64,000 bases of DNA from Blautia massiliensis (ex Durand et al. 2017). Its GTDB lineage: Bacteria; Bacillota; Clostridia; Lachnospirales; Lachnospiraceae. Numbering within the stretch: position 1 is the stretch's first letter; each line of letters begins with the position of its first letter. The position numbers and the translations under genes are program-made. A model generated the notes under the pieces. That model made no database searches. It saw nothing but the letters and a program-made list of their open reading frames with translations, and was not told the origin of the DNA. Location of the stretch: contig NZ_LN913006.1 in assembly GCF_001487165.1 (NCBI RefSeq), positions 1,988,096 to 2,052,095 of the forward strand. Reading direction: 5' to 3'. Positions 27,258-32,260 of the stretch are shown in pieces.

Positions 27258-28637
27258 ATGTATCAGATAGACTTTCATAAACCGCTCCATATTCATTTCA
27301 TCGGGATCGGAGGCATCAGCATGAGCGGCCTTGCCGAGATCCTTCTGGAAGAAAATTTCCGGATTTCCGGTTCCGATGCCAAATCCAGCCCGCTGACCCG
27401 CACACTGGAAGAACGTGGCGCTGTGATCTATTACGGACAGCGCGCTTCCAACATCAAGGATGATGTAGATGTGGTTGTCTATACAGCAGCGATCCACCCG
27501 GACAACCCGGAATTTGCCTGTGCGAAAGAAAAAGGGCTTCCAATGCTCACCCGCGCAGAGCTTCTGGGACAGATCATGCGGAACTACGATACACCGATCG
27601 CAATTTCCGGAACCCACGGAAAAACCACTACTACTTCCATGGTTTCCCATATCCTTCTTGAGGGTGACTGTGATCCTACCATCAGTGTTGGCGGAATCCT
27701 TCCTGCTATCCACGGAAACATCCGCGTTGGAAATTCTGAGACCTTTATCACAGAGGCATGCGAATACACCAACAGCTTTTTAAGCTTCTTCCCTAAGATC
27801 AGTGTGATCCTGAACATGGATGCCGATCATCTGGATTTCTTCAAGGACATCGATGACATCCGCCATTCCTTCCGGAAATTTGCAGAGCTTCTCCCTGCTG
27901 ACGGTACTCTGATCATCAACGCCGACACACCGGAGTATGAGACGATCACCCGGGAGCTTCCATGCAATGTTCTTACCTATGGTCTGGAGCACGATGCCGA
28001 TTACACCGCAGCAGACATTACCTGGGATAAATACGGACATCCTTCCTTCTCCGTTCTCTTCCGGGGCAAAAAGATCGGCAGCTATTATCTGCGTGTACCG
28101 GGTATCCACAACGTATCCAATGCACTGGCCGCCATTGCCGTAGGACGCCTTCTGGACCTTCCGGATGATGTGATCGTCAAAGGTCTCGGAAGCTTTACCG
28201 GTACAGACCGTCGTTTCCAGTATAAAGGTGAGATCGGCGGTATTACCATCATTGATGATTACGCGCATCATCCAACCGAGATCGAGGCAACCCTTCATGC
28301 TGCAAAGAATTATCCGCATCAGAAGGTATGGTGTGTATTCCAGCCTCATACCTACACACGTACCAAAGCTCTTCTTCCGGAATTTGCAAAAGCGCTGACT
28401 CTGGCCGATCATGTTGTACTGGCTGATATTTATGCCGCACGTGAAACAGACAATCTTGGTATTTCTTCCCAGGATCTCCAGAAACAGATCCAGGAACTTG
28501 GAACCCCCTGCGAATATTTCCCGACTTTTGATGAGATCGAGAGCTTCCTCTTAAAAAGTTGTGCACATGGTGATTTGTTGATAACTATGGGCGCCGGAGA
28601 CGTTGTAAATATTGGAGAACACCTTCTCGGAAAATAA
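27258..28637 (+). CDS. murC: UDP-N-acetylmuramate--L-alanine ligase
   Basis: 459 residues, the normal MurC length. N-terminal UDP-MurNAc domain (HFIGIGGISMSGLAEIL), ATP loop AISGTHGKTTTTSMVSHIL at ~112-130, the central TEACEYTNSFLSFFP and NMDADHLDFF motifs, and the C-terminal DDYAHHPTEI with FQPHTYTR. It adds the first amino acid of the peptidoglycan stem peptide in the cytoplasm. It is not in a mur cluster; a DnaA-box cluster begins two bases after its stop codon. Confidence 0.97.
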   Translation: MYQIDFHKPLHIHFIGIGGISMSGLAEILLEENFRISGSDAKSSPLTRTLEERGAVIYYGQRASNIKDDVDVVVYTAAIHPDNPEFACAKEKGLPMLTRAELLGQIMRNYDTPIAISGTHGKTTTTSMVSHILLEGDCDPTISVGGILPAIHGNIRVGNSETFITEACEYTNSFLSFFPKISVILNMDADHLDFFKDIDDIRHSFRKFAELLPADGTLIINADTPEYETITRELPCNVLTYGLEHDADYTAADITWDKYGHPSFSVLFRGKKIGSYYLRVPGIHNVSNALAAIAVGRLLDLPDDVIVKGLGSFTGTDRRFQYKGEIGGITIIDDYAHHPTEIEATLHAAKNYPHQKVWCVFQPHTYTRTKALLPEFAKALTLADHVVLADIYAARETDNLGISSQDLQKQIQELGTPCEYFPTFDEIESFLLKSCAHGDLLITMGAGDVVNIGEHLLGK

Positions 28638-28830
28638 TTATCCACATTATCCACATGCTTATGCACATTTCAGACGTGCCTGGCATGTGGATTTTTTTGT
28701 GTATAACCTACTTGACATAATTCAACAGCCAAATTCAACAAATACCGCATTTTTCTTACAAAATTAAGGTTTTTGTTAGTTGCTGATAATGTTATCCTCA
28801 AAGTTTTCCACACTATCCACATTTTCCACA
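28638..28830. promoter_or_regulatory. DnaA-box cluster upstream of the dnaD-like/dnaI-like genes
   Basis: Matches to TTWTNCACA: TTATCCACA at 28638 and 28647 (abutting), TTATGCACA at 28659, TTATACACA on the minus strand at 28706-28698, TTTTCCACA at 28804 and 28822, with CTATCCACA (one mismatch) between them at 28813, giving three abutting boxes. TTATCCTCA at 28792 is a further one-mismatch site. Between the two groups is ~90 bp of AT-rich DNA with a repeated AATTCAACA. The whole 330-bp interval between murC and the next gene is this cluster plus a promoter. dnaA and dnaN are not in the window, so I do not call it oriC. Confidence 0.85.
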
Positions 28831-28866
28831 TGGAAATTGGTGCACAACTTCTGTGAAAATAGACTA

Positions 28867-28895
28867 TTCTCAAGTAAAAGCGGTTGTGCTATAAT
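28867..28895 (+). promoter_or_regulatory. Promoter of the dnaD-like operon
   Basis: TTCTCA (28867-28872), 17 nt, TATAAT (28890-28895). The nearest DnaA box ends 36 bp upstream of the -35. Confidence 0.6.
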
Positions 28896-28967
28896 CCTTT
28901 TTAGCATGGCGGACTTTGGGATATCACCTGAAATATCTGCTGTATTTTAGAAAGGGAGCTGCTGATC

Positions 28968-30065
28968 ATGAGCCTGATTTCACTTCAGAATTCCTCTGAA
29001 CTGGAGGTAACGATTCTTTCCAATCGCTTTATTGACAATTTCATGCCTCGTGCCAACGGGGAGTTCGTAAAGGTATATATCTACCTTCTCCGGATGGTAT
29101 CTGCCGCTCCTTCTTCTTTCAGCCTGGAGCATATGGCAGACAGCCTTTTCTGCACGGAAAGAGATATTTCCCGTGCGCTGAAATACTGGGAAGGTGAGAA
29201 ACTGATCGCATTAACCTATACTGCAGATCAGAAGCTTTCCGGGATCACTTTGCTGGAACCCTTTGCGGATACCGGTCATAGAGAGAGCAGCGCTTCCGTG
29301 GATACTTTCACCGGTTCCGGCAATTCTGCTTCCGTTTCCGGGAACACGGATCCGGGAGTCCCAAGCTCCGCTGATTACATTCTCAGTCTCACTCCTGACC
29401 GGATCAGAGAACTTAAGCAAAACGAAGAGATCAGTCAGCTTCTCTATATCACAGAGCAGTATCTGACCAAAACACTGACGCCTACAGAAATGCAGAAGAT
29501 CCTTTTTTTCTATGATGAACTCCATATGTCTGCGGATCTCATCGAATATCTGGTGGAATACTGTGTTTCCAGAGGCCGCAAGAGTATGCGTTATATTGAA
29601 ACTGTTGCACTCGCCTGGGCAAAAGACGGCATCACCACCGTCGAGATGGCCCGGGATGCCAGCTCCCGTTTTTCCAAGGATTATTACACGATCCTGAAGG
29701 CTATGGGAATCAGCGGCCGCAATCCTGTTGATAACGAGATCACTTACATTGATACCTGGCGCAAGACCTACGGTTTTGATCTGGAGCTGATCCAGGAAGC
29801 CTGCAGCCGTACTGTCCTTTCCACCGGACAGCCCAGTTTCCAATATGCAGATAAGATCCTCTCCGGCTGGAAAAAGAAAAACGTACATACGCTGGAGGAT
29901 ATCCGGCTTCTGGATGCCGCACACAAAAAACGCCAGCTTGAGAAATCCGTTTCCAGGAAGAAGCAGCCCCAGACTCAGCCTCAGAATAGCAACCGCTTCA
30001 ATAATTTCCACCAGCGTGATTATGATTTTGCGGAATATGAGAAACGTCTTTTAAATAATCAGTAA
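28968..30065 (+). CDS. DnaD/DnaB-like replication initiation protein
   Basis: 365 residues. N-terminal winged-helix part (~10-100; FMPRANGEFVKVYIYLLRM), a Ser/Gly-rich linker (~100-135), then two DnaD-type helical domains (~150-230 and ~235-310) with the family YxxxIxxxW motif in YADKILSGWKKKNVHT. In Bacillus, DnaD and DnaB remodel DNA at origins and bring in DnaI and the helicase. The following gene is a DnaI-like loader 22 nt downstream, so the pair is the helicase-loading unit. GGGAGCTG precedes the ATG. Confidence 0.92.
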   Translation: MSLISLQNSSELEVTILSNRFIDNFMPRANGEFVKVYIYLLRMVSAAPSSFSLEHMADSLFCTERDISRALKYWEGEKLIALTYTADQKLSGITLLEPFADTGHRESSASVDTFTGSGNSASVSGNTDPGVPSSADYILSLTPDRIRELKQNEEISQLLYITEQYLTKTLTPTEMQKILFFYDELHMSADLIEYLVEYCVSRGRKSMRYIETVALAWAKDGITTVEMARDASSRFSKDYYTILKAMGISGRNPVDNEITYIDTWRKTYGFDLELIQEACSRTVLSTGQPSFQYADKILSGWKKKNVHTLEDIRLLDAAHKKRQLEKSVSRKKQPQTQPQNSNRFNNFHQRDYDFAEYEKRLLNNQ

Positions 30066-30087
30066 CAGAACCTGGAAGGAGCGCTTT

Positions 30088-31074
30088 ATGCCTTTACAGA
30101 ATTTTCAATATGATACTATAATGAGAGAATACAGCCGCCGGCAGGCACAGAACCACCGTATTCTGGAGGAGCACACAGCCAAAGCCTACGGAAAGATCCC
30201 CCGTCTGAAAGAGATCGATGACGAGGTGGCAACTTTAAGTGCTGACAAAGTCCGTCGCCTTTTAAACGGAGAAGAAAAGGGAACTTCGGATCTGAAGGCA
30301 GCCATTCAGGAGCTTTCCGATGAACGGATCACCCTTCTTGTTGCAAACGGCTTTCCCGGAGACTATCTTGAGATGCCTTACACCTGCCCTGACTGTCAGG
30401 ATACCGGCTATATCGGCAGCCGAAAATGCACCTGTTTTAAAAAAGCTGAGATCGAACTGCTTTATGCACAGTCCAATCTGAATGAAATTCTCGAAAAAGA
30501 GAATTTTGACAGCTTTTCATTTGACTATTATTCTGCTACAATAAAAAACGAAGCCACGGGACTGTCTGCCCTGGAAACAGCCAGACGGGCCTATGACACT
30601 GCACAGCGCTTTGTGCAGAACTTCGACCATAAATTTGAAAACCTGTTTTTATATGGTGATACCGGTGTGGGAAAAACCTTTCTTTCACACTGCATCGCCC
30701 GAGAGCTTCTCAGATCCACCCACTGTGTCCTGTACTTTTCCGCCTACGATCTTTTTGATATGATGGCTGCGAATTCTTTTTCCCGAAAAGATACCGGCAC
30801 AGACGAGGAACTGATCTATGACTGTGATCTTCTGATCATTGATGACCTGGGAACGGAGCTTACCAACAGTTTCGTATCTTCACAGCTTTTTCTCTGTCTT
30901 AATGAGCGGATCATGCGCAGGAAATCCACGATCATTTCCACGAATCTGACGCTCAAAAATTTCTCGGATACCTATTCCGAGAGAACATTTTCCCGAATTG
31001 CCAGCAACTATCAGATGATATCGTTGATCGGGAAAGACATCCGTATACAGAAAATATTTTTAGGAGGAAATTAA
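30088..31074 (+). CDS. DnaI/DnaC-like helicase loader ATPase
   Basis: 328 residues. A zinc-ribbon-like group (Cys100, Cys103, Cys114, Cys116; CPDCQDTGYIGSRKCTC) precedes an AAA+ domain with Walker A GDTGVGKTFLSH (~190-201), Walker B LLIIDDLGTE and the TIISTNLTL sensor region. It should load the DnaB/DnaC-type replicative helicase with the DnaD-like protein upstream. AAGGAGCG precedes the ATG. It is followed one base later by the PRPP synthetase gene, an unusual operon partner. Confidence 0.94.
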   Translation: MPLQNFQYDTIMREYSRRQAQNHRILEEHTAKAYGKIPRLKEIDDEVATLSADKVRRLLNGEEKGTSDLKAAIQELSDERITLLVANGFPGDYLEMPYTCPDCQDTGYIGSRKCTCFKKAEIELLYAQSNLNEILEKENFDSFSFDYYSATIKNEATGLSALETARRAYDTAQRFVQNFDHKFENLFLYGDTGVGKTFLSHCIARELLRSTHCVLYFSAYDLFDMMAANSFSRKDTGTDEELIYDCDLLIIDDLGTELTNSFVSSQLFLCLNERIMRRKSTIISTNLTLKNFSDTYSERTFSRIASNYQMISLIGKDIRIQKIFLGGN

Positions 31075-31075
31075 A

Positions 31076-32260
31076 ATGGCACAGGTAAATACAAAAGATT
31101 TTTCCACACTCCCGGTAGGAAGACTTGGACTGATTCCCCTTCAGAGCTGCAGCTCATTAGGCGCGAAGGTGAATGACTGGCTGGTCAAATGGCGTGCCGA
31201 AAGACAGTATCCTGGAATGGACTCCTTTGCATTCGAGGGATACAAGCGCGATTCTTACATTATTGACGCCAAGACTCCACGTTTCGGCTCCGGTGAGGGT
31301 AAATGCACCATCAACGAATCTGTCCGCGGTGATGATATCTACGTAATGGTAGATGTGACAAATTACAGCTTATCCTATCCGATCGGACCTTACACGAATC
31401 TTATGTCCCCGGATGATCATTTCCAGGATATGAAGCGTGTTATCGCCGCTGTAGGCGGAAAAGCCCGCAGAGTCAACGTGATCATGCCATATCTCTATGA
31501 GAGTCGCCAGGACAAACGTGTCGGAAGAGAGTCTCTTGACTGTGCCAATGCACTTCATGAGCTGATCGATATGGGTGTTGAGAATATCATCACTTTTGAT
31601 GCACATGATTCCCGTGTACAGAATGCGACTCCTCTTCATGGTTTTGAGACTGTACAGCCATCCTACCAGTTCATCAAGGCTCTTCTTAATAATGAAAAGG
31701 GACTTCATATCGACAAGGATCATTTCATGACGATCAGCCCGGACGAAGGAAGCATGAACCGTGCGATCTATCTCGCCAATGTCCTCGGTGTTGATATGGG
31801 TATGTACTATAAACGTCTGGATTACTCAAGATATGTAAACGGCCGGCATCCGATCGCAGCATATGAATTCCTCGGACCAAAGATCGAGGGCAAGGATATG
31901 ATCCTGATCGATGATATGATCTCCTCCGGTGATACAATCATTAAGATCGCGTCTCTCCTGAAAGAGAAAGGAGCAGGCAGAGTTTACATCTGCTCTACCT
32001 TCGGATTCTTTACCGATGGTCTTGATAAATTTGACGATGCTTACAAGAAGGGCTACTTCGACAAGCTCCTTACTACTAACCTGGTTTATCAGTCACCGGA
32101 GCTTCTTGAGAAGCCATACTACATCAGCTGCGATATGAGCAAATATATTGCTCTGATCATTGATACGCTGAACCATGATACCTCTGTCAGCCACCTTCTG
32201 AATCCGGTAGACAGAATCAAACGCTGCGTAACAAATTACATGAGCCAGCATGAGAAATAA
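31076..32260 (+). CDS. prs: Ribose-phosphate pyrophosphokinase, long clostridial form
   Basis: 394 residues against ~315 in the classical enzyme. PRPP-binding loop DMILIDDMISSGDTI, the TFDAHDSRVQNATP metal site, and PDEGSMNRAIYLANVLG are present; VDVTNY... replaces the usual regulatory flexible-loop region. It makes PRPP from ribose 5-phosphate and ATP for nucleotide, His and Trp synthesis. The long form occurs in many clostridia beside or in place of the short one. Coupled to the dnaI-like gene (1-nt gap, AGGAGG inside its end). Confidence 0.93.
   Translation: MAQVNTKDFSTLPVGRLGLIPLQSCSSLGAKVNDWLVKWRAERQYPGMDSFAFEGYKRDSYIIDAKTPRFGSGEGKCTINESVRGDDIYVMVDVTNYSLSYPIGPYTNLMSPDDHFQDMKRVIAAVGGKARRVNVIMPYLYESRQDKRVGRESLDCANALHELIDMGVENIITFDAHDSRVQNATPLHGFETVQPSYQFIKALLNNEKGLHIDKDHFMTISPDEGSMNRAIYLANVLGVDMGMYYKRLDYSRYVNGRHPIAAYEFLGPKIEGKDMILIDDMISSGDTIIKIASLLKEKGAGRVYICSTFGFFTDGLDKFDDAYKKGYFDKLLTTNLVYQSPELLEKPYYISCDMSKYIALIIDTLNHDTSVSHLLNPVDRIKRCVTNYMSQHEK

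Follow-up and report, generated by a model that had tools for sequence, protein, structure and literature searches.

An array of DnaA boxes phased with the predicted dnaD promoter as a probable control region of helicase-loader genes in Blautia and related Lachnospirales

An array of DnaA boxes located between murC and the genes of a DnaD-like and a DnaI-like protein in Blautia massiliensis is probably a DnaA-operated control region of the dnaD-dnaI (helicase-loader) promoter. DnaA is a known transcription factor, with DnaA-regulated promoters that include Caulobacter targets and E. coli nrdAB. A region of this kind bears on the matching of helicase-loader supply to initiation in Firmicutes other than Bacillus. 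If real, a conserved DnaA-operated switch on dnaD-dnaI would tie initiator activity directly to loader supply, and the spacing of this switch would have changed during evolution mostly by whole helical turns.

The array lies in a stretch of DNA of 64,000 nucleotides (hereafter the window, to which positions refer), where the gene order is murC, array, dnaD-like, dnaI-like and PRPP synthetase, with the four genes on the plus strand. The stop codon of murC (UDP-N-acetylmuramate--L-alanine ligase, 27258-28637, TIGR01082 above cut-off) directly abuts the first DnaA box. The dnaD-like gene (28968-30065) encodes a replication initiation protein of 365 aa matching PF07261 and TIGR01446, whose closest solved sequence is DnaD 8ojj (E 5e-8) and whose nearest named DnaD is that of B. 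luti (88%; records very near the window were possibly left out of this comparison). The dnaI-like gene (30088-31074) encodes an AAA+ ATPase of 328 aa with IstB and Bac_DnaA domains. This product scored above cut-off for NF005304 (PRK06835, 'ATP-binding protein') and below it for the primosomal DnaI equivalog (56.6 vs 228 bits), and "DnaI-like" is therefore the right wording. These profile matches bear out the naming of both genes in an earlier reading of the same DNA (the sequence-only reading). The following gene (31076-32260) belongs to the phosphoribosylpyrophosphate synthetase family (NF005299 above cut-off). Domain searches also revealed two DnaB_2 stretches in the DnaD-like protein (28968-30065), a domain plan described in part of PMC5295017 as that of B. 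subtilis DnaB rather than DnaD.

A pattern scan of the window identified six exact matches to TTWTNCACA and one single-mismatch box in the 193-bp stretch 28638-28830, which is the count that had been claimed. Five exact boxes are on the plus strand, starting at 28638, 28647, 28659, 28804 and 28822; the sixth, TTATACACA (28698-28706), is on the minus strand, a detail that the sequence-only reading did not mention. The window as a whole contains 21 exact boxes against 5.85 expected, a number reached in 0 of 100 shuffles. At the density of the remaining window, 0.045 exact boxes would be expected in the 193-bp stretch instead of six (Poisson p ~1.2e-11), and the next densest stretch of this length has two. 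The abutting pair TTWTNCACANTWTNCACA occurs at three places in the 3.7-Mb genome, two of them in the array (reversed-pattern control, 0), and same-strand triplets with gaps of at most 30 bp occur at two places genome-wide, the array and C4:2210193. Boxes beyond chance are thus found close to a predicted promoter (see below), as in a DnaA-regulated promoter.

The boxes form two modules. Module M1 comprises two abutting copies of TTATCCACA (28638-28646 and 28647-28655), a gapless doubling found where it had been reported (28638-28655), and a third box, TTATGCACA, 3 bp further on (28659-28667). Among 75 loci with both modules, the M1 doublet, TTATCCACATTATCCACA, is followed by a third box at +3 in 55. 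M1 starts at most 3 bp from the end of murC in 41 of 74 loci; elsewhere it overlaps this end (3/74) or lies 28 to 324 bp behind it (30/74). Module M2 (28804-28830) is the run of three abutting boxes TTTTCCACA-CTATCCACA-TTTTCCACA, likewise as first described, in which the middle box CTATCCACA (28813) is the single-mismatch one; its counterparts in relatives mostly consist of two or three abutting boxes.

A predicted hairpin in which the second M1 box pairs with its inverted copy, followed by a T run (28649-28698, plus strand; fold -26.2 kcal/mol, z -4.8), is probably the murC terminator. This raises the question of whether the boxes are a by-product of that hairpin or of base composition, the more so as the predicted fold takes in all three M1 boxes and the minus-strand box, together with the T run. 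Such an origin is almost certainly not the explanation, as M2 lies outside the hairpin, and the T-run form, recognized as GTGGA followed by at least four T, was found in only 43 of 75 loci. Moreover, a Blautia element located elsewhere in the genome (see below) keeps the same doublet with no T run after the inverted box in the contexts that were read, and the reversed pattern scored 0 in 60 Blautia genomes.

Two further motifs separate M1 from M2. Motif A, TTGACATAA (28712-28720, plus strand), commonly TTTACATAA in relatives, lies 56 bp after the M1 doublet. In its general form (TTNACATAA), it was detected in 55 of 75 loci at an offset of 43-44 bp (7 loci) or 54-56 bp (48 loci) from this doublet, compared with 0.7% of shuffles. 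Motif B, AGTTGCTGATAAT (RGTTNNNVATAAT; 28778-28790, plus strand), is just upstream of M2 and was found 13-16 or 23-26 bp before it in 39 of 75 loci (shuffles, 0.24%), mainly in Blautia: 32 of 38 loci with more than 55% DnaD identity have it, versus 2 of 24 with less than 45%. Two other readings of the surroundings of motif A were discarded. The adjacent TTCGACA, considered as a Spo0A box, has a TCGACA part that varies among loci, TTKACATAA being steadier; and TTGACATAA taken as a -35 element had no apparent -10 element 16-18 bp further on when loci were read by eye.

Downstream of M2 is the predicted dnaD promoter (28867-28895, plus strand), with a -35 element TTCTCA, a 17-bp spacer and an extended -10 element TGCTATAAT whose hexamer (28890-28895) is 59 bp after M2. 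Promoter-like sites are no commoner than chance in the 601-bp region (2 vs 1.7 in shuffles), and support for this promoter therefore comes from the conservation of the extended -10 rather than from frequency. With an extended -10 defined as TGN plus at least four of the six positions of TATAAT, 106 of 109 loci contained one in the interval from the last doublet to dnaD, versus 28% of letter-shuffled sequences; in 17 of the 109, none was found within 130 bp of M2, including three with none at all.

The array is kept in close relatives, as comparisons of Lachnospirales loci and Blautia genomes revealed, and its loss from them can be set aside as an objection to the sequence-only reading. With a doublet defined as two boxes with one mismatch allowed overall, all 30 fetched Blautia loci, the best-scoring 30 from 59 genomes with a match, had both modules. 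Among best-scoring loci, at least one doublet was found in 24 of 32 from other genera of the family (both modules in 13), 15 of 26 from other families of the order (both in 5; upstream sequence is short in L082, 431 bp, and L084, 235 bp), and 66 of 75 named loci (both in 53), a set whose species overlap with the others and which excludes the partial matches L173, L175 and L176. The reversed-sequence control gave 0 in every group. Boxes are thus kept with dnaD, as would be the case for a DnaA-regulated promoter. The array is missing from 8 of the 32 loci of the family, 11 of the 26 of the order and 9 of the 75 named ones. These absences indicate that it is dispensable or replaced in some relatives. 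The array is absent from all seven rows in which less than 100 bp separates murC from dnaD; L044 and L151, both among these seven, appear to come from a single genome.

At the genome scale, the exact doublet TTATCCACANTATCCACA was detected in 48 of 60 Blautia genomes, with 115 copies (reversed control, 0). By hand count, 77 copies are upstream of dnaD (46/60 genomes) and 38 elsewhere, with at most one copy elsewhere per genome; 14 of the 60 have no exact doublet upstream of dnaD. Among 60 genomes of the family, the one studied here included, 40 contain the doublet and 31 have it upstream of dnaD by hand count (reversed control, 2). Several of these have two or more copies elsewhere, so that the near-exclusivity of the doublet is limited to Blautia. 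An example is L324 (G075:C132:1-5000), on the dnaA side in another genus of the family, where six matches to the abutting-doublet pattern fall within ~2 kb. Outside the order, none of 28 class-wide loci had a doublet on either strand, and 3 had a lone exact box in the 700 bp upstream. None of the 28 had a MurC match upstream either (L191 had one weak match, downstream), and linkage of the array to dnaD is thus not fully separable from linkage to the gap between murC and dnaD. In the loci compared, the array keeps its place between these two genes and was not observed apart from the pair.

The position of M2 relative to the predicted promoter appears to follow the DNA helix. The spacing between M2 and the best -10 has peaks at about 49, 59, 69 and 79 bp, in steps of one helical turn, with a tail up to 499 bp and ties assigned to the farther site. 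In 55 representatives (at most 25% shared 6-mers, after loci with less than 250 bp upstream or an identical upstream stretch were dropped), this phasing departed from a jitter null (p=2e-4, the smallest value obtainable from 5,000 draws), while the distance to the ATG displayed little periodicity by the same statistic. Shared ancestry was considered with a DnaD tree, in which 108 of 109 rows were matched by sequence and the 92 loci with a -10 within 130 bp provided 46 independent pairs. The M2 to -10 distance was unchanged in 24 pairs and differed by at least 4 bp in 22, favouring multiples of ~10-11 bp (p=0.004); the controls gave p=0.08 for M2 to ATG and p=0.66 for -10 to ATG. These data support a helical phasing of M2 relative to the predicted dnaD promoter, a position in keeping with DnaA regulation. 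Phasing between M1 and M2 is suggestive: the distance gave p=0.03 in tree pairs (74 loci, L041 being left out, 37 pairs of which 14 changed) and p=2e-4 in 23 representatives without tree correction. When the distance from an upstream protein to a promoter is kept in whole turns, this generally points to a regulator in contact with RNA polymerase or bending the DNA towards it, the best-known case being class I activators.

Altogether, DnaA would bind cooperatively to the two tandem-box modules, of which M1 follows murC and M2 precedes the dnaD promoter. M2 would keep to one side of the helix with respect to RNA polymerase at the extended -10, a side that M1 perhaps shares. The putative start site is near 28902, which places the centre of the last M2 box ~76 bp upstream. 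DnaA, through its level or its nucleotide state, would thereby set the supply of the proteins that follow it at the origin in helicase loading. The sequence-only reading had suggested such a control by DnaA over later-acting proteins, and comparison supports the suggestion well, with boxes kept before dnaD in many members of the order and M2 in phase. From sequence, we infer DnaA binding, promoter activity and the direction of regulation at the array. The position of M2 and its whole-turn shifts in relatives match the geometry of an upstream activator, which favours activation of dnaD-dnaI by DnaA as more likely than repression. Repression, a variant of DnaA control compatible with the same general explanation, would involve looping between M1 and M2, or the blocking of murC read-through or of a second promoter near motif B. 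This variant is rather improbable. It would account for the apparent helical phasing of M1 with M2, and motif B ends in a -10-like ATAAT, a site whose start M2 would cover; yet M2 is upstream of the conserved extended -10 and not over it, and no -35 for motif B was apparent in loci read by eye. The B. subtilis DnaA targets presented in a section of PMC4447404, one activated and several repressed, offer a precedent for repression. Regulation timed within the cell cycle is possible, as is a feedback of DnaD on the DnaA oligomer. B. subtilis DnaD is described in a part of PMC5295017 as an inhibitor of cooperative DnaA binding, so that DnaD might feed back on its own promoter.

A DnaA-box cluster might also belong to an origin, the chromosomal one being normally found beside dnaA at a GC-skew switch. 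Neither is at the array: dnaA (C4:2724932-2726296) and the skew switch are ~0.71 Mb away. Skew was sampled in 20 stretches of 8 kb, the window, the locus L009 (see below) and both sides of dnaA, with the unplaced 200-kb contig C3 represented by its first 20 kb. It was positive to the right of dnaA and over the first 1.3 Mb of the contig, and negative in the interval that runs from 1.5 Mb up to dnaA, a sign pattern that places the window in mid-arm. The skew in the window and in the sampled stretches rules out the array as the chromosome origin, a possibility that the sequence-only reading had itself named as a refutation. This reading had also considered a secondary origin part, a suggestion that does not fit a skew without a switch at the array. 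A secondary or backup origin would be consistent with an AT-rich stretch flanked by two box clusters, and with a motif resembling motif A at oriC, but is highly improbable, as the window has a single skew sign and the sampled stretches switch sign at dnaA, somewhere from 1.3 to 1.5 Mb, and nowhere else.

Alternatively, the array could titrate DnaA or control its nucleotide state, in the manner of E. coli datA and DARS or of the B. subtilis clusters outside oriC, and precede dnaD by accident. In B. subtilis, six extra-oriC clusters whose joint deletion leads to early initiation are described in portions of PMC5295017 and PMC13220808, while a section of PMC12371093 argues for titration near the origin in E. 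coli. The distance between array and dnaA, 8-20% of the contig in six Blautia genomes with fewer than 10 contigs (G000 and G051 being near-identical), would suit such a role, as would the existence of a second conserved DnaA-box element whose downstream gene varies. A sink requires neither the phasing of M2 to the dnaD promoter nor a constant place between murC and dnaD, and as a sole explanation titration is unlikely. Titration as an additional function of the array is possible.

Like B. subtilis sda and other DnaA-regulated promoters, the array has boxes upstream of a replication-coupled gene on which DnaA would act as a transcription factor. It differs in its presumed target, the helicase-loader operon, in having two modules built of abutting 9-bp boxes, of which one is phased to a predicted extended -10, and in its occurrence across an order. 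In the B. subtilis DnaA target list, as given in a section of PMC4447404, dnaD, dnaB and dnaI are not named. The B. subtilis extra-oriC clusters (Okumura 2012, as cited in parts of PMC5295017 and PMC13220808) are likewise away from oriC, whereas the array is tied to a specific operon and to one face of its predicted promoter. According to a passage of PMC11317965, E. coli DnaA prefers boxes 2-3 bp apart; such double boxes resemble the second and third boxes of M1, 3 bp apart, in contrast to the doublets of the array, which abut with zero gap. E. coli datA and DARS, as outlined in part of PMC5295017, are also non-coding DnaA-box clusters, while the array precedes a predicted promoter. Among the matches listed from openly licensed literature, titles and abstract beginnings did not describe a DnaA-box array at dnaD-dnaI.

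The additional non-coding DnaA-box element was identified beside the end of the V-ATPase operon (L009:4861-5265, corresponding to G000:C4:2209860-2210264). It is composed of a box, a doublet, motif A, a GTTTTG block and an AT-rich stretch, and is possibly a datA/DARS-like site. Rfam searches yielded no match reaching the gathering score in window positions 28300-29300 or in L009 4700-5700. This extra doublet was found in 38 of 60 Blautia genomes, at most once in each. Among the 35 of these 38 that were examined (34 fetched and our own), 34 have a third box-like site before the doublet and 34 have motif A 22-24 bp after it; ANAYGTTYTG is found further on in 29, of which 28 have it at 45-47 bp. 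Of the 34 fetched stretches, 25 have the V-type ATPase gene ntpD beside the element. The genes downstream vary, ranging from the end of the V-ATPase operon to a trmB-like gene (named from its translation), and no shared small ORF after the element was seen by eye among the stretches listed. In other genera, 13 of 20 stretches with extra doublets had the GTTTTG block within 110 bp and 1 of 20 had motif A.

A similar motif occurs upstream of dnaA, where TTNACGTAA was present in all 27 Blautia loci for which 300 bp or more was available (L259-L288, from which L266, L270 and L273 were left out as contig starts) and TTTACGTAA in 22. There, TTNACGTAA is 2 bp before an exact box in 25 of 27 loci. The motif thus precedes the boxes at oriC and follows the doublet at the dnaD array and the extra element, and has a G where motif A has an A, so that kinship between the oriC motif and motif A is no more than plausible. 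GTTTACRTAA is not enriched genome-wide (16 vs 34 in the reversed control), and what stands out is its placement beside boxes. The TTKACATAA motif beside boxes, given its resemblance to TTTACGTAA at oriC, may mark an undiscovered DnaA partner in a major group of gut bacteria. One can speculate further on a three-site circuit in Lachnospirales, in which DnaA and a partner reading TTTACRTAA would act at oriC, the dnaD-dnaI promoter and one further conserved non-coding element, with DnaA driving the loader through two phased modules and DnaD closing a negative feedback on its own promoter. This scheme is doubtful as a whole, and made slightly more so by the occurrence of motif A in 1 of 20 extra sites of other genera and by its opposite side at oriC.

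Finally, with dnaA taken as the origin, dnaD-dnaI (28968-31074) meets the replication fork head-on in all six Blautia genomes that have fewer than 10 contigs, as deduced from positions in G000, G001, G028, G037, G043 and G051, an orientation that seems unusual for an essential operon.
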